The notes below the pieces were generated by a model. That model saw only the letters and a list, made by a program, of their open reading frames with translations. It was not told the DNA's origin and did not search any database. A program made the position numbers and the translations under genes. Positions 10,064 to 17,215 of a stretch of DNA of 37,509 nt are shown in pieces. Location: positions 1 through 37,509 of IMG/VR virus record IMGVR_UViG_3300028417_000012; one strand, 5' to 3'. This stretch comes from a virus. Each line of letters opens with the position of its first letter. Positions within the stretch are counted from its first letter, which is position 1.

Positions 10064-10633
10064 GTGTCCTTTTCGAAAATCACCGACCGCGATGCCTTTG
10101 CAGAACTGTGGTGCGATCCTGACGTGACATATGCTGATTTGCTGGCTGAATTCGATGTGAAATCGCACGCATCACTTTATCTGGCGGCCAAGCGGTTCGG
10201 ATTGCCGTCCCCTAAACAGGTCAAGAGAAAGAAGCCGCATCAAGGATTGCCGGTTGCCGATATTGCCGCAATCAAGGCGCGGTTCGAGGCGGGTGATCGG
10301 GTTGGCGACATCGCCGATGATTATCCGATATCGGAAAAGGCGATTTACCAGATGATCAAGCGCAAGGGTTGGGTGCGCGGCGGGGATCAAGGCAAGCCTT
10401 GCGGGTTGGCGCGCGAGGTAGCCATGCGTGCCGCCATGCCTGCTGTGTCCATGCTGCGACGCCGTCATCGCCCTGCTGTGCGTGACGGTCTGATTGACCG
10501 GTTGGGCGAGGAAAAGATCAAGGCGCTGCGCCGCACCGATGGTAAATATGCCGCGTTGCAAAAGCTGGGTGAAAAGTGGGGCACATCGGCGCGCACAATG
10601 CAGATGTGGTGGCATCGGGTGAGGGTGTTATGA
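10064..10633 (+). CDS. HTH-containing phage protein (189 aa)
   Basis: GTG start at 10064 after GGGGTGGTG. There appear to be three short HTH-like units: residues about 22-48 (TYADLLAEFDVKSHASLYLA), about 70-100 (AAIKARFEAGDRVGDIADDY, then ISEKAIYQMIKRKGW) and near the C-terminus (YAALQKLGEKWGTSARTMQM). It is basic throughout. Similar proteins open phage replication operons; it may bind the origin or regulate the operon. No family name recognised. ATGA joins it to the methyltransferase. Confidence 0.7.
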   Translation: MSFSKITDRDAFAELWCDPDVTYADLLAEFDVKSHASLYLAAKRFGLPSPKQVKRKKPHQGLPVADIAAIKARFEAGDRVGDIADDYPISEKAIYQMIKRKGWVRGGDQGKPCGLAREVAMRAAMPAVSMLRRRHRPAVRDGLIDRLGEEKIKALRRTDGKYAALQKLGEKWGTSARTMQMWWHRVRVL

Positions 10634-11827: not shown

Positions 11828-12027
11828 ATGCAGCATCACAAACCCTGCTGATGCAGGCGCGCCGGTTTGGCAAGACCGCGCGCATCGACAAGATCGCCAC
11901 GCTTGAGTGCATGGACGAGTTGAACGCATTCAAGGCGGCCTGTGAACAACAGGGGCACCCCCTGACGCAAGGCGAGGTGACAACACTGGCGCACCGCGCA
12001 CGGGAATTGCAGCGGGGTGGCCGGTGA
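11824..12027 (+). CDS. Hypothetical small helical protein (67 aa)
   Basis: Starts MNAASQTLLMQARRFG at 11824 (ATGA). Two basic helices with a KIATLECMDELNAFKAACE core, ending just before the primase (TGATG junction). Possibly a partner of the replication proteins; unknown. Confidence 0.6.
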   Translation: MNAASQTLLMQARRFGKTARIDKIATLECMDELNAFKAACEQQGHPLTQGEVTTLAHRARELQRGGR

Positions 12028-13211
12028 TGATATTTACACACGATCAGGCAAAGAAATATAAGGATGCTGCGGCAGAGCGGCGCGCAAAACGTGATCAGTG
12101 GTTTAAATCCGCGATTGATGAAGCCAAGGATTTGAGCGTTAAAGACGTATTGTTCAAACTTGGCATCCATGACCTGCGCGCAGCAAGTGGCTGGTATTCT
12201 GGCCCGTGTTTTGAATGTGGCGGGACAGACAGGTTCAATATCAGCATCGATGACAAGGGGTTTTTCTGTCGCCATGACTGCGGTGTGCGCGGCGGTGACA
12301 TGATCGCGCTGACCATGCAATTCAAGCGGATTGAATTCAAAGAGGCGTTGGAATTACTGGTCGGCGGGATGGATATCGCGGTTGATCCAAAGGTCATTGC
12401 GGAGCGCAAAAAGAAGTCAGAGGCCAACAAGAAAAAACAGGACGCATACAAAGCCAAGGCCCGCAAGCGTGCCCGCAAGGATGCCAGCGTGATCTGGCGC
12501 AAGGGGCGGGGGCATCTGCGCAGTATGCTGCACGATTATTTCGAGTTGCGCGGCATCACCTATGACATGCTGCCTGAATTGCCGGATGTTTTGCGCCTGA
12601 TTCCTGATCATCCTTATGTCAAGAAAATCGGCGGCCAGCTGGTGACCGCGCATCGCGGCCCCTGCATGATCGGATTGATCCAGTCGCCGGATGATCGGGG
12701 TGCGGCGGTCCATCAGACATGGATTGACCTGACGCAGGACAACGGCAAGGCGCGGATCACGTATGGCGATGATGTGCTGCCGTCCAAAATGGTGCGCGGT
12801 TCCAAAAAGGGCGGTGCGATCCGGCTGCACACCCCGCTGGCCGCTGACACGCTGGTGATGGGCGAGGGGATTGAAACCACCATGACGGCCCTTGCCGCCC
12901 AGCCGATTGCCGGTGCGGCCTATTGGTGCGCCGTTGATCTGGGCAACATGTCGGGCCGGATGCAGCGTGGCAAGGGCAAGCGGTTCGCGGGTCTGCCGGA
13001 CATGTCTGACACAGCAGCCTTTGTGCCGCCCGCATGGGTTAGGCGTTTGGTGTTCATCATGGATGGCGATTCCGAGCCGCGCATGACCCGCGCCAAACTG
13101 GAGTCCGGTTTGCGCCGCGCAATGGCCGTCCGCCCCGGTCTGGTGGGGCAGATTGTAGAGGCTGGCGTTGGTGTGGATTTGAACGATGTGCTGAAAGGGG
13201 GCGGGGAATGA
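12027..13211 (+). CDS. DNA primase with zinc finger and TOPRIM domain
   Basis: 394 residues from ATG 12027; a GTG at 12024 is the alternative. The zinc-binding part near residues 60-95 reads PCFECGGTDRF, then FFCRHDCGVRGGD, giving a C-x2-C...C-x3-C set as in phage and CHC2-type primases. A Lys-rich linker follows. The TOPRIM domain shows LVMGEGIETTMTAL (about 277-290, Mg-binding Glu) and VFIMDGDSEPRM (about 342-353, DxD). It would lay down RNA primers together with the helicase two genes on. ATGA joins it to the ParB-like gene. Confidence 0.85.
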   Translation: MIFTHDQAKKYKDAAAERRAKRDQWFKSAIDEAKDLSVKDVLFKLGIHDLRAASGWYSGPCFECGGTDRFNISIDDKGFFCRHDCGVRGGDMIALTMQFKRIEFKEALELLVGGMDIAVDPKVIAERKKKSEANKKKQDAYKAKARKRARKDASVIWRKGRGHLRSMLHDYFELRGITYDMLPELPDVLRLIPDHPYVKKIGGQLVTAHRGPCMIGLIQSPDDRGAAVHQTWIDLTQDNGKARITYGDDVLPSKMVRGSKKGGAIRLHTPLAADTLVMGEGIETTMTALAAQPIAGAAYWCAVDLGNMSGRMQRGKGKRFAGLPDMSDTAAFVPPAWVRRLVFIMDGDSEPRMTRAKLESGLRRAMAVRPGLVGQIVEAGVGVDLNDVLKGGGE

Positions 13212-14056
13212 GTGATCGTTATCGCAAGATTGATCTGGCCGGTTTTGACGGTTTTCGCCATTCTTCACAGGATGCACCGGAATTGAAGTGGGTTGATATA
13301 TCCGATCTGGTGATTGATGACACCTATCAGCGCAAGCTGGAAAAGCGTGGACGCAAGAATATCGAGGCGATTGCCGCCGATTTCTGGTGGAGCCGTTTCA
13401 CGCCGCTGCTTGTTGCGCCGGTCATTGGCGGGCGGTTTGCCATCATTGATGGCCAGCACCGCACCCATGCCGCCGCGATCTTCGGTTATAAATCTGTTCC
13501 GGCAATGGTGGTTGAAATGCCGCTGGAGGAACAGGCCCGCGCGTTCAGTTGGGTGAATGGTAATGTCACCAATGTGACGCCGTTCCAGATATTCCGTGCA
13601 GCACTGGCCGCAGGTGAGGATTGGGCGGTGCGGGCCAATGCCGCGGTCAGGGCTGCCGGTTGTCGGTTGATGACTGCTAATGCGTCAACGGTGGCTAAAA
13701 AAGGCGGTGAGGTTTATTGCATCGGCCTGGTGCGTGGCCATGTCGAGGATGGCAACGCATGGGCCGTGACAGCCGCGCTGCATAGCCTGCGCCAATGCGC
13801 GGATGCGGATTGGCCGGTGATATATTCGGCGACTGTTTTGCGCCCGTGGATTACCTGCCTGCTGGAACACGGTAACCCCGGCGAACAAATGCTGGTCGAG
13901 TTTCTGGACGCTAACTGCTTGGATCGGCTGTTGTCCGGTGTGGACAAGATGCGTGACACGCCGAAATATTTCAATAAATCCCGCCAGTTCCTTTTGAGCC
14001 GCACAATGTTGGCTTTATTCAAGGCGTTCCTGCGCGAAAAAGCGGGTGCAGCATGA
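13208..14056 (+). CDS. ParB/DUF6551-like nuclease-domain protein
   Basis: 282 residues. The N-terminal 110 residues hold a ParB/sulfiredoxin-type fold: DLVIDDTYQRKL, then FAIIDGQHRTHAAA with the DGQHR signature (81-85) and VPAMVVEMP. The remainder is helical. In phage replication clusters such proteins lie between primase and helicase, and may bind or nick DNA; their role is not established. It lacks the HTH of a true ParB partition protein, so plasmid-like partition is unlikely. ATGA overlaps both neighbours. Confidence 0.75.
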   Translation: MSDRYRKIDLAGFDGFRHSSQDAPELKWVDISDLVIDDTYQRKLEKRGRKNIEAIAADFWWSRFTPLLVAPVIGGRFAIIDGQHRTHAAAIFGYKSVPAMVVEMPLEEQARAFSWVNGNVTNVTPFQIFRAALAAGEDWAVRANAAVRAAGCRLMTANASTVAKKGGEVYCIGLVRGHVEDGNAWAVTAALHSLRQCADADWPVIYSATVLRPWITCLLEHGNPGEQMLVEFLDANCLDRLLSGVDKMRDTPKYFNKSRQFLLSRTMLALFKAFLREKAGAA

Positions 14057-15909
14057 CTGACAATCTGGAAAAGGTGAAAGACAAGTTCGACGCCGCCGAG
14101 GATATCGCGCCGGTGGATGGTCTGTCTGTGCCGCCAGAGGATCAGCCCGGGCAAGAGCCGCCCGCACCCAGCCAACCTGACGGGGATGAGCCGATCGAGG
14201 CGCGAGGTGCCGCATTTCCGGAAAACGACACCGGCAACGGCCAGCGGTTCAATCTGTATTTCGGCGAGGATGCCATTATGGTGCCGCGTGTTGGCTGGTT
14301 CCTGTGGGACGGCAAACGCTGGCAACAGGATCACGATATGATCGCCGTGCGCGCCAAGGCGCAAAAGGTGCAGGACCATATCATTGCCGAAATCCCGCAT
14401 ATGGATTTGGAAAACTGGCAGCGGGCAGAACTTGAGGCAGAACTTTCCACCCGTTGCGCCCTGGCTCCGCTGGAAGCAATGGAACGGGACGCGCGCACGC
14501 CGGAACAACAGGTCGAATACGATGATTTGCGCCAGAAACTGGTCTGGATTGGCAAGATCAAGGAACGCAAATCCAAGATGAAGTCAGAGCATCGCAGTTT
14601 TGCCAAGACCACCGGCAACAATGGTCGCATCAACGCTATGCTGACGGAATCAACCGTGCATCTGGCGCGCGAGGTTGATGATCTGGACAGTGACCCGTTG
14701 ACCGTGAATACAGAATCCGGCGTGTTGCGGTTTTCCGTGACCGGCGGCACTGGCGAGGGGTTTTCCAAAGTTTCCGATGTGGTGCTGGAACCGCATGTGC
14801 GCGAGGCCACAGTTACCGGCCACAACGCGCCGCAATACATCACCAAGATGCTGCCGGTTGAATATGATCCGGACGCGACATGCCCCGGCTTTGATGCCTT
14901 CCTTGAACGGATCCAGCCGAACCGCGATATGCGCGCGTTTTTGCAGCGCTGGTTCGGCCTGTCGATGACATCGCTAACCGGCGAGCAGAAATTTGCATTC
15001 CTTTACGGCGATGGCGCCAACGGAAAATCCGTGCTGGTCGATCTGATCGCGCGTTTGTTCGGCGATTATTCCGCCACCGCCAAGATCGAGAGCCTGACTG
15101 GTCGCAACCGGCGCGGTGGCGGTGATGCCACGCCCGATCTGATTCCGCTGGTTGGCGCACGCATGGTGCGGGCCAGTGAACCAGAGGAAGGCGAGCGCCT
15201 GAAAGAGGGTATGATCAAGGAATTGACCGGCGGCGAGCCGATACTGGTGCGCCAGCTGCATTCCGATTTTGTCGAGGTAAAGCCGAAATTCAAACTGACG
15301 ATTTCTGGCAACCACAAACCGGACATCCGCGGCACGGATGATGGCATCTGGCGGCGCGTGCTGCTGGTGCCGTTCGATGTGAAAATCCCGCAAGCCGAGC
15401 GCAACGAAAAGCTGGGCGATGAATTGTTCGAGCGCGAGCGCGCCGGTATCCTGAACTGGCTGGTCACCGGCCTGCTGGATTATCTGGAAGGCGGATTGCA
15501 GGAACCACAGCAGGTTCTGGATGCGACCCTTGAGTATCGCAGCGAGAGTGACCCGTTCGGATCGTATTTGCAGGAATGCTGCATTGTAACGGGCAATCCG
15601 CCTGATTTCACCACCGCGCGTGACCTGGTTGACGGGTTTAACCTGTGGCTGGATATGAAAGGCGATGGCATGTATGGCCAGCGCACCGTTTCGCTAAAGC
15701 TGAAAAAGATGGCCAACCGATACCGTGACCCTGCCACTGGCAAGGTTTACACCTCGGCCAAGCAGCGCGTCACGGGATACCGTGGCATCCGGTTTCAGGA
15801 CATGTTCCAGAAAGACTTTGACGATGCCCCGCGCAATGCGCAGGGCCACCCCGTGGCCTCGACGTCCAGATCGGCGTCCGGTGGCGGCGGTGATGGTGAT
15901 TTCCGTTGA
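14053..15909 (+). CDS. Phage replicative primase-helicase (D5/P4-type, SF3)
   Basis: 618 residues. The first about 65 are acidic, Pro-rich and disordered. A D5_N-like region runs about 85-300 (WDGKRWQQDHD, LNTESGVL-like text). The helicase core begins FAFLYGDGANGKSVL with Walker A GDGANGKS (319-326), then RASEPEEGERLKEG, sensor-1 ISGNHKP (417-423) and the arginine-finger stretch DDGIWRRV. It forms a ring that unwinds DNA at the phage fork, with the separate zinc/TOPRIM primase. The repeat-rich origin candidate starts right after its stop. Confidence 0.9.
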   Translation: MTDNLEKVKDKFDAAEDIAPVDGLSVPPEDQPGQEPPAPSQPDGDEPIEARGAAFPENDTGNGQRFNLYFGEDAIMVPRVGWFLWDGKRWQQDHDMIAVRAKAQKVQDHIIAEIPHMDLENWQRAELEAELSTRCALAPLEAMERDARTPEQQVEYDDLRQKLVWIGKIKERKSKMKSEHRSFAKTTGNNGRINAMLTESTVHLAREVDDLDSDPLTVNTESGVLRFSVTGGTGEGFSKVSDVVLEPHVREATVTGHNAPQYITKMLPVEYDPDATCPGFDAFLERIQPNRDMRAFLQRWFGLSMTSLTGEQKFAFLYGDGANGKSVLVDLIARLFGDYSATAKIESLTGRNRRGGGDATPDLIPLVGARMVRASEPEEGERLKEGMIKELTGGEPILVRQLHSDFVEVKPKFKLTISGNHKPDIRGTDDGIWRRVLLVPFDVKIPQAERNEKLGDELFERERAGILNWLVTGLLDYLEGGLQEPQQVLDATLEYRSESDPFGSYLQECCIVTGNPPDFTTARDLVDGFNLWLDMKGDGMYGQRTVSLKLKKMANRYRDPATGKVYTSAKQRVTGYRGIRFQDMFQKDFDDAPRNAQGHPVASTSRSASGGGGDGDFR

Positions 15910-16079
15910 CCGTTTTGGTCAACACCCACGCGCCACGCGCCGACCATTCCCCGCACCCCCTTATCCGACTTCGGAAATCATTACGGTCCGACCGGTCCGA
16001 GACTGCATTTTGTCGGTCGGAGATCGTGAAACGGGGTTTGGGGGAAGTTGTTTGTATTCAACGGTTTGCGCCTGAATTG

Positions 16080-16207
16080 CGGCCCGAACGGCCCGAACGG
16101 CCCGAGATGCGAGGTAATGCGCGCGCGGTTTACCAGACGGGGTTTGGGGGTAAACTGTTGTTCCATGCGTTACTTGGCATTTCAGGCCGTTCGGGCCGTT
16201 CGGGCCG
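16080..16207. repeat. 128-nt nested inverted repeat built from 9-bp iterons
   Basis: The arms 16080-16102 and 16185-16207 are perfectly complementary over 23 nt and extend to 31 nt with two mismatches. Each arm is almost three copies of GGCCCGAAC. Inside lies a second stem, GTTTACC with GGTAAAC. It can extrude as a cruciform or fold as RNA. Confidence 0.85.
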
Positions 16208-16330
16208 TGATCCACCACATTTACACCGCATTATCAACTGGTTGGCATTAACGTATCTCGCTCTATCTCGGGCCGTTTGTTTACTGTTTCAGGCCGTTCA
16301 GACCGTTAATTCCAAACGAGAAAACAACAT

Positions 16331-16348
16331 ATTGTTAGAAATAACAAT
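16331..16348. promoter_or_regulatory. Perfect 7+4+7 palindrome before the late-region gene
   Basis: ATTGTTA-GAAA-TAACAAT, 33 nt upstream of the ATG at 16382, in AT-rich DNA. Candidate operator or mRNA hairpin with a GAAA loop. Confidence 0.5.
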
Positions 16349-16381
16349 GCAGCCACTAAATATAGAAAAAGAGGGCAGAGC

Positions 16382-17074
16382 ATGACGGTTCAATTGCAAA
16401 GAGGTGATCAGTTGCGGCGTGGAAAGGTGCGGCTGGTGTCGATCCGTGGATTGCTGGAATGGGCTTTCCAGAAAGAACTGGCAAGTCTTGATTTCAACGA
16501 GGTCCAGAGTTCGTCCGGTTGGCTGCCATCATCTGTGTCGATGGAATACAAGATGATGGAGCAGGCCAAGCTGGGGTGCCGTGTGGATGGTGGTGGCAGG
16601 TCAGACCCGCATCCCGATGCTGACATCGTGGTGTCGGCATTGGCAGCATTGCCCGAGGCATTGGGCGGTCGGCGCACAGCGATGTGGATTGCGGAACTGG
16701 CGCGTGCTGGTCGCGAACCTGACTGGATGCCGGACGCCACACCACGGCTGGTTCCTGGCGAAACGCATACCAACCGGCACGGCACCTTCGCCCGCACCGA
16801 TGACGCTGCCGGATTGGGGGCTGAAGGTTGGGCGCCACAGCCGCGCCGTAATCGCAAGGGCGTGGTGGTTCATGACCGTGTGTTGTTCTGTCCGGCGCGC
16901 TGGTATCCGACAGGTTCGCAGATCGCGGCGGCGCGGCGTGCTTATTTGCATTGGTATTCTGTGCTGCTTGAGTTGCGCAACACCTTTCAAATCCACAACA
17001 ATCTGTCTGCGCATGTTGTGACGGACTCCATGCCTGTGTTGTCGCCATGGAAAAAAGGCTTGACGAAATCCTAG
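16382..17074 (+). CDS. Unknown 230-aa protein, possible late regulator
   Basis: Good GAGGG ribosome site about 8 nt before the ATG. Its text is mixed: RGKVRLVSIRGLLEWAFQKE, YKMMEQAKLGCRVDGGG, then a central part with VVSALAALPEALGGRR and a C-terminal VVHDRVLFCPARWYPTGSQ and RRAYLHWYSVLLELRNTF. No family or catalytic motif recognised. It stands alone after the origin, followed by a terminator, a tRNA and the cos/late operon, the place where lambda has Q. That makes a late transcription regulator a reasonable but unproven guess. Confidence 0.75.
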   Translation: MTVQLQRGDQLRRGKVRLVSIRGLLEWAFQKELASLDFNEVQSSSGWLPSSVSMEYKMMEQAKLGCRVDGGGRSDPHPDADIVVSALAALPEALGGRRTAMWIAELARAGREPDWMPDATPRLVPGETHTNRHGTFARTDDAAGLGAEGWAPQPRRNRKGVVVHDRVLFCPARWYPTGSQIAAARRAYLHWYSVLLELRNTFQIHNNLSAHVVTDSMPVLSPWKKGLTKS

Positions 17075-17139: not shown

Positions 17140-17215
17140 GTCCGGGTGGAGCAGTTGGTAGCTCGTGTGGCTCATAACCACGAGGTCGCAGGTTCAAGTC
17201 CTGCCCCGGCAACCA
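17140..17215 (+). tRNA. Prophage tRNA-Met (CAU), initiator-like
   Basis: 76-nt cloverleaf with encoded CCA. D stem GAGC/GCTC, anticodon stem TGTGG/CCACG around loop CTCATAA (anticodon CAU), T arm GCAGG-TTCAAGT-CCTGC. The acceptor GTCCGGG pairs with CCCGGCA at five of seven positions, leaving 1:72 (G/A) and 2:71 (U/C) unpaired; alternatively a bulged U restores seven pairs. Unpaired 1:72, A11-U24 and two of the three G-C pairs at the anticodon stem base resemble initiator tRNA-fMet. A terminator precedes it and the GpZ-like gene follows at once. Confidence 0.9.

Follow-up and report, generated by a model that had tools for sequence, protein, structure and literature searches.

A mirror-symmetric array of twelve iterons behind a D5/SF3 helicase gene as probable replication origin of a temperate phage

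Gene context and related loci

The analyzed stretch of DNA, a virus record of 37,509 nt (the window), represents an integrating temperate phage with a tyrosine integrase gene (1054-2082) located beside a tRNA gene (951-1023). The early region encodes a methyltransferase, a CHC2-type primase (12024-13211, plus strand; phrog_510, 1.9e-67) for which matches are present in most relatives, a ParB-like protein (13208-14056), and a D5_N/SF3 helicase of 618 amino acids (14053-15909, plus strand; Pfam D5_N, 1.2e-20, and PHROG primase/helicase families), which is proposed here as a self-loading initiator with the primase as its partner. The end of the helicase gene at 15909 is followed by a gap of 472 nt, a gene for a 230-aa protein, and the terminase genes. 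A further tRNA gene (17140-17211) is located inside the phage region, after the 230-aa gene and ahead of the late genes.

The gap contains an array of short repeats, to which the ParB-like gene lies near. An Rfam scan of the window yielded two tRNAs only and left the array region unmatched, and a nucleotide search of this region against phage records gave no match because the iteron units diverge. For the detection of relatives, a pattern scan with the window helicase alone returned no viral relative but only two bacterial/archaeal contigs, whereas a scan with a helicase alignment succeeded and 80 IMG/VR loci were collected. The named records Tritonibacter p5, Phaeobacter pP88_h, Paracoccus phage Pthi1, Pan4, Nsp-JY21, and RcapNL were added. 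Relative L005 is a proven circular phage-plasmid (PMC10090143). Partition genes accompanied by an HTH protein are also present in L005 and the phage-like plasmid pP88_h (L006), so that plasmid maintenance does not necessarily depend on an origin at the array. In pP88_h, genes for an acyl-homoserine-lactone synthase and an autoinducer-binding regulator (751-1984) are found near the repressor region.

Architecture of the array and its conservation

In the window, the array consists of twelve 9-bp sites between 15983 and 16306 with the consensus TCGGGCCGT, six in each orientation. Two tandem sites, one single site, and three tandem sites lie to the left of the centre, and the same order is mirrored on the right, with start-to-start spacings of 9, 21, 66, 9, and 9 in the left half, 85 across the centre, and 9, 9, 68, 21, and 9 in the right half. 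The minus-strand sites start at 15983 and 15992 (L1 and L2, TCGGACCGT and TCGGACCGG; 15983-16000), at 16013 (L3, TCCGACCGA; 16013-16021), and at 16079, 16088, and 16097 (L4-L6; 16079-16105). The plus-strand sites start at 16182, 16191, and 16200 (R1-R3; 16182-16208), at 16268 (R4, TCGGGCCGT; 16268-16276), and at 16289 and 16298 (R5 and R6, TCAGGCCGT and TCAGACCGT; 16289-16306). The two inner triples, L4-L6 and R1-R3, can form the arms of a hairpin. A twelve-site template fitted to the array gave a value of 1102, compared to 545 (maximum 568) in eight dinucleotide shuffles and a mean of 564 (sd 20, maximum 622) over 139 other stretches of the window. A second iteron cluster resembling P4 crr was sought elsewhere in the window, and only scattered single matches were found.

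The original prediction had described a nested palindrome directly behind the helicase gene, built from two inverted iteron arrays with a second stem inside, further units downstream, a 14-nt G-rich direct repeat, and AT-rich DNA at the end. Each of these elements was recovered: the inverted arrays at 16079-16105 and 16182-16208 (inverted repeat I1, 48-nt arms, 83% complementary), the inner stem at 16106-16120 (GATGCGAGGTAATGC) and 16167-16181 (GCGTTACTTGGCATT), the downstream units at 16268, 16289, and 16298, the repeat ACGGGGTTTGGGGG at 16031 and 16137, 37% GC across the 110 nt beyond the array, and the position behind the helicase end at 15909. The left outer sites at 15983, 15992, and 16013 had been missed and complete the twelve-site mirror; the palindrome is only the inner half of this larger structure.

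A template fit of at least 800 behind a D5/SF3 helicase gene was reached by 63 loci, of which 56 remained after removal of near-identical helicases. In the template the spacers were bounded to 20-22 and 65-68, and the commonest spacings (21 and 67) fall in the middle of the ranges searched. Without a template, a lag scan revealed 9 as the dominant period in the DNA behind the helicase gene, and a unit scan gave mirrored positions in many loci, for example 30, 39, 61, 128, 137, 146 / 231, 240, 249, 316, 337, 346 in L009. About one quarter of the loci remained below the threshold, some with partial arrays and others with none. Brought into a common register, the unit reads TCNN[GTC]CC[CG]N, with TCAAGCCCA, TCTGCCCCG, and TCCTCCCTA among its variants, and positions 3-5 vary most between phages. 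Judged from this comparison, the layout is kept across about 60 related phages while the site sequence changes with the helicase. Additional DNA between helicase gene and array was observed in L025 (+1316), L028 (+1512), and L013 and L017 (both +390); in the latter two the unit still equals that of phages with similar helicases. The clade boundary of array-bearing D5 helicases was sampled by a few distant examples only, among which the Aurantimonas phage AmM-1 has the dyad (fit 870), and no dyad fit was obtained for the sampled mycobacteriophage Krueger, Rhizobium RR1-A, Parageobacillus, Singulisphaera, Bradyrhizobium, and Methylobacterium examples.

The spacers carry further conserved elements, which were counted over the 56 non-redundant loci and compared to shuffles. 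For IHF, the consensus WATCAANNNNTTR was used and at least 8 of its 9 fixed bases were required. Such matches, each present in only about half of the loci, were found in the left spacer of 28 loci (1.6 expected), almost invariably at a single position and in a single orientation, and in the right spacer of 26 loci (3.1 expected), mirrored or direct, while the centre was not enriched (2 of 56 loci, 2.3 expected). In the window, the left IHF-like site ATTCAACGGTTTG (16056-16068, plus strand) has 8/9 consensus bases, and the right site TATCAACTGGTTG (16232-16244, plus strand) has 9/9, a perfect match of which the window contains only one other. A G-box, GGGGTnnGGGG, is present in the left spacer of 45/56 loci (1.6 in shuffles; ACGGGGTTTGGGGG at 16031-16044, plus strand, in the window), in the centre of 29/56 (1.0 in shuffles; ACGGGGTTTGGGGG at 16137-16150, plus strand), and as an inverted minus-strand copy upstream of the array in 33/56 (1.4 in shuffles; CCCCGCACCCCC at 15949-15960). 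In phages with TCTGCCCC-like units (L029, L032, L036, L038, L075, L003, and L006), the G-box of the left spacer is missing; several of these phages show a doubled CCGCACCCCGCACCCC upstream, giving the impression that the G-box was relocated. The GC content is 54% in the centre, 44% in the right spacer, and 37% after the array (16307-16416; mean of relatives 51%), where the AT-rich segment before the next gene (16307-16381) represents candidate unwinding DNA. The A-rich elements AAACAACATATTG and CACTAAATATAG (16322-16365), similar to each other and separated by about 31 bp, immediately precede the downstream gene. Both recur there in most relatives, the second one sometimes overlapping the start codon, and they are possibly a promoter or a regulator site.

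The left arm of the inner stem (16106-16120) runs into a CG-alternating tract, which is conserved in the centre of relatives together with an imperfect inverted repeat in many loci. Single-strand folding in the window is far beyond chance (z -6.7 as RNA; z -7.7 as DNA for 16070-16217). For analysis of pairing, bases departing from the locus consensus were scored at unit positions 2-8. In the inner triples such departures recur in the hairpin partner in 61 of 148 cases (0.41), compared to 60 of 296 (0.20) in non-partners (Fisher p 5e-6), and recurrence drops to 0.27 if the right half is replaced by that of a different locus with nearly the same unit. The outer six sites exhibited no such pairing (0.12 vs 0.10). 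The suggestion that iterons serve as arms of a cruciform was partly supported, by the inner triples but not by the outer sites. From their co-variation the inner arms appear to behave as a pair, which would be explained either by selection for hairpin formation or by correction of one arm from the other in the course of replication. Since partner co-variation is absent from the outer six sites, pairing is not the organizing principle of the whole structure.

Co-variation with the helicase and alternative explanations

A winged helix is predicted at the C-terminus of the helicase (about residues 500-606; helix 543-553, wing 567-577; AlphaFold2, pLDDT 89). The model of this domain matched AsfvPrimPol (Z 8.7), the P4 origin-binding domain 1ka8 (Z 7.9 over 86 residues), and the RFX DNA-binding domain (Z 7.6), where Z values under 8 can reflect a common arrangement and Foldseek alone gave a weak match to 1ka8 (rank 30, E 0.55). 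A sequence search of solved structures with the helicase alignment returned AsfvPrimPol, poxvirus D5, and the 'DNA primase' entry 7ola; 1ka8 was not among the matches.

The distance between iteron units correlated with the distance between wings (rho 0.21, p 0.001) and between winged helices (rho 0.18, p 0.002), but not with that of terminase (rho -0.02), TerS (0.01), or HNH protein (0.01). Helicase pairs within the closest 5% (70% identity) had an iteron distance of 0.16 against a background of 0.40, whereas the closest 5% of terminase pairs (68% identity) remained at background (0.39). In a windowed partial correlation, the association with the unit peaked at helicase residues 565-579, overlapping the predicted strand pair of the wing (567-577). 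Wings also fall into groups, with VTGY-type wings accompanied by G at unit position 5, TWGY-type wings by xGCCC, and S..Y-type wings by xTCCC. Two natural domain swaps were found: L043 and L039 share 67% of the helicase core and 35% of the wing at an iteron distance of 0.57, and for the window and L019 the values are 62%, 37%, and 0.63. A second region, the SF3 core loop 354-360, is associated with iteron positions 4, 5, and 8 to the same extent as the wing, possibly by a lineage effect or a DNA contact. The overall correlations are modest (0.1-0.2), and because the array adjoins the 3′ end of the helicase gene, linkage could yield part of them; the downstream gene, equally close to the array, shows little correlation with the unit (rho 0.07). 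Taken together, these comparisons suggest that the iterons are specific for the cognate helicase, and its own C-terminal winged helix is the best candidate for their binder.

Binding by another linked protein, such as the primase, the ParB-like protein, or a small early protein, at a genuine origin was also considered. The primase shows a weak trend with iteron distance (rho 0.09, p 0.052), but the correlation peak lies in the helicase C-terminus, and the known binders of this family are the helicases themselves (PMC7581432). For the HTH protein encoded at 10064, which had been suggested as initiator, no homologue was found in the other loci scanned, and a ParB-like match was found in only a few of them, so that this alternative is unlikely. 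Tandem and inverted iterons are typical of centromeres and operators, and with the ParB-like gene nearby (13208-14056), a function of the array in partition or as operator of a phage regulator was considered as well. Most array-bearing relatives lack a ParB-like match, the unit co-varies with the helicase, and no sigma-70-like promoter was detected in 15700-16600, which makes such a role very improbable. Even less credit is given to a repeat-containing coding frame (15906-16385) or to a structured RNA: a frame of 159 codons is open and the strand folds as described, but no family match was obtained (Pfam, PHROG), Rfam gave nothing beyond tRNAs, and the outer sites are unpaired. In 35 of 56 relatives, stops interrupt each of the three frames across the array, and the open frame differs in the rest; the coding frame was rejected for lack of a conserved frame across the 56 relatives.

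A packaging function, with the inverted arrays as sites of the small terminase subunit around a cos cleavage point, is suggested by the location upstream of the terminase genes and by lambda cos, which likewise combines repeats and IHF. The deposited genome ends of RcapNL (L011/L012) fall inside its own array and bear the annotation '3′ cohesive overhang' (26 nt); since RcapNL is listed as circularly permuted (PMC8601537), this annotation may represent an assembly overlap. The unit sequence does not depend on TerL or TerS (rho -0.02 and 0.01), and the same unit was found with gpA-type and with HNH/TerL-type terminases. Furthermore, phages with 60-67% identical terminases but without a D5 helicase have no array. 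Among independently collected related gpA terminases, the dyad was detected in 10/10 contigs that have a D5 helicase upstream (fits 746-1204, at least 800 in seven contigs) and in 0/18 without (fits up to 676; Fisher 8e-8), with some of the 10 contigs overlapping the first set and 4 of the 18 having only 3.6-4.1 kb upstream. Because a correlation with the terminase is missing and the array is absent in phages with similar terminases lacking the D5 helicase, the cos role was rejected, and we regard it as highly improbable.

The assignment as a replication origin was strongly supported by the computational comparison, because the unit co-varies with the helicase, the array occurs only with the D5 helicase and is decoupled from packaging, and SaPI Rep and Cch2 bind iterons located directly behind helicase genes of this kind (PMC7581432). 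With a probability of roughly 0.85, the element at 15.98-16.31 kb is the replication origin of the phage and is bound by the helicase C-terminus. The GC skew, which follows gene orientation and has no switch at 16 kb, was uninformative.

Proposed mechanism and comparison with known origins

At such an origin, the helicase (14053-15909) would use its C-terminal winged helix to bind the twelve iterons. In the mirrored order of 2+1+3 / 3+1+2, six sites face each way, which would fit one hexamer per half. IHF, presumed to occupy its consensus sites, would bend the two spacers, and thereby the outer three sites of each half would probably meet the inner three. One helicase hexamer may then assemble per half, head to head, with its six winged helices occupying the six sites of that half. 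Strand opening is expected at the hairpin-capable inner arms and the AT-richer right side, followed by the phage primase (12024-13211) and the host polymerase. Loading of a double hexamer on DNA folded by IHF is a possibility to which we assign somewhat less than an even chance. More tentative, and rather doubtful as a whole, is the wider idea that the geometry of the mirror array serves as a template by which a double hexamer is loaded in an ordered manner, in which IHF folds the halves, extrusion of the inner hairpin couples binding to opening, and the architecture was repeatedly re-coded by paired changes of the wing and all twelve iterons, resulting in many mutually incompatible, co-existing origins.

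The architecture is common to temperate phages and phage-plasmids, the named members being mostly from Alphaproteobacteria. The approximately 56 iteron/winged-helix pairs provide a natural data set on how P4-type initiators read DNA, and their pairing would explain element-specific replication. Also, the assembly of a self-loading SF3 helicase as two hexamers on duplex DNA becomes directly testable, and the array can be used as a computable origin marker for uncharacterized phage genomes.

With the alpha protein of phage P4 and its ori/crr iterons, the window shares the P4-family primase/helicase, and the C-terminal winged helix resembles 1ka8 at the Z of 7.9 given above. In P4, primase and helicase are fused, ori and crr are separate sites, and layout and unit differ from those of the array. 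In pRN1 and phage BIP-1, a stem-loop origin lies behind the SF3 helicase gene (PMC4234260). It is a non-coding, hairpin-forming element downstream of a winged-helix SF3 helicase with variable sequence and conserved structure, which the array with its hairpin-capable centre appears to resemble; no iterons were recognized as origin there, whereas in the window the possible hairpin is only the inner part of the twelve-site array and its arms are also iterons. The putative origin of SCCmec Cch2 also has iterons in the intergenic region behind a D5-type helicase gene, to which the Cch2 C-terminal domain binds, but it comprises only three 5-nt iterons and its inverted repeats are dispensable for binding (PMC7581432). 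In the literature searched, with subscription journals largely outside its coverage, no description of a twelve-site architecture was found, and this rigid arrangement is apparently undescribed so far.

The array also resembles the SaPI and PICI origins (PMC6092414, PMC7581432), where short iterons also lie immediately 3′ of the replication helicase gene in two sets flanking a centre. SaPI Rep and Cch2 belong to the same helicase family and use the C-terminal domain to bind short iterons that directly follow their own genes; SaPI Rep apparently binds as two hexamers (PMC7581432). By sequence comparison, the iterons of the array appear to be element-specific as in these systems. It shares the D5_N/SF3 helicase gene directly upstream, the short repeat in two sets in non-coding DNA, and the C-terminal winged helix. 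In PICI origins, the two iteron sets flank an AT-rich region (PMC6092414), whereas the hairpin-capable centre of the array has 54% GC and AT-richer DNA is located in the right spacer and after the array. By analogy, the array would work like a PICI origin, yet it is not classed as one: it differs by its twelve sites, strict mirror symmetry, fixed spacings of 9/21/67 bp, IHF-consensus sites in the spacers, and G-boxes, and it is carried by complete tailed phages and phage-plasmids.
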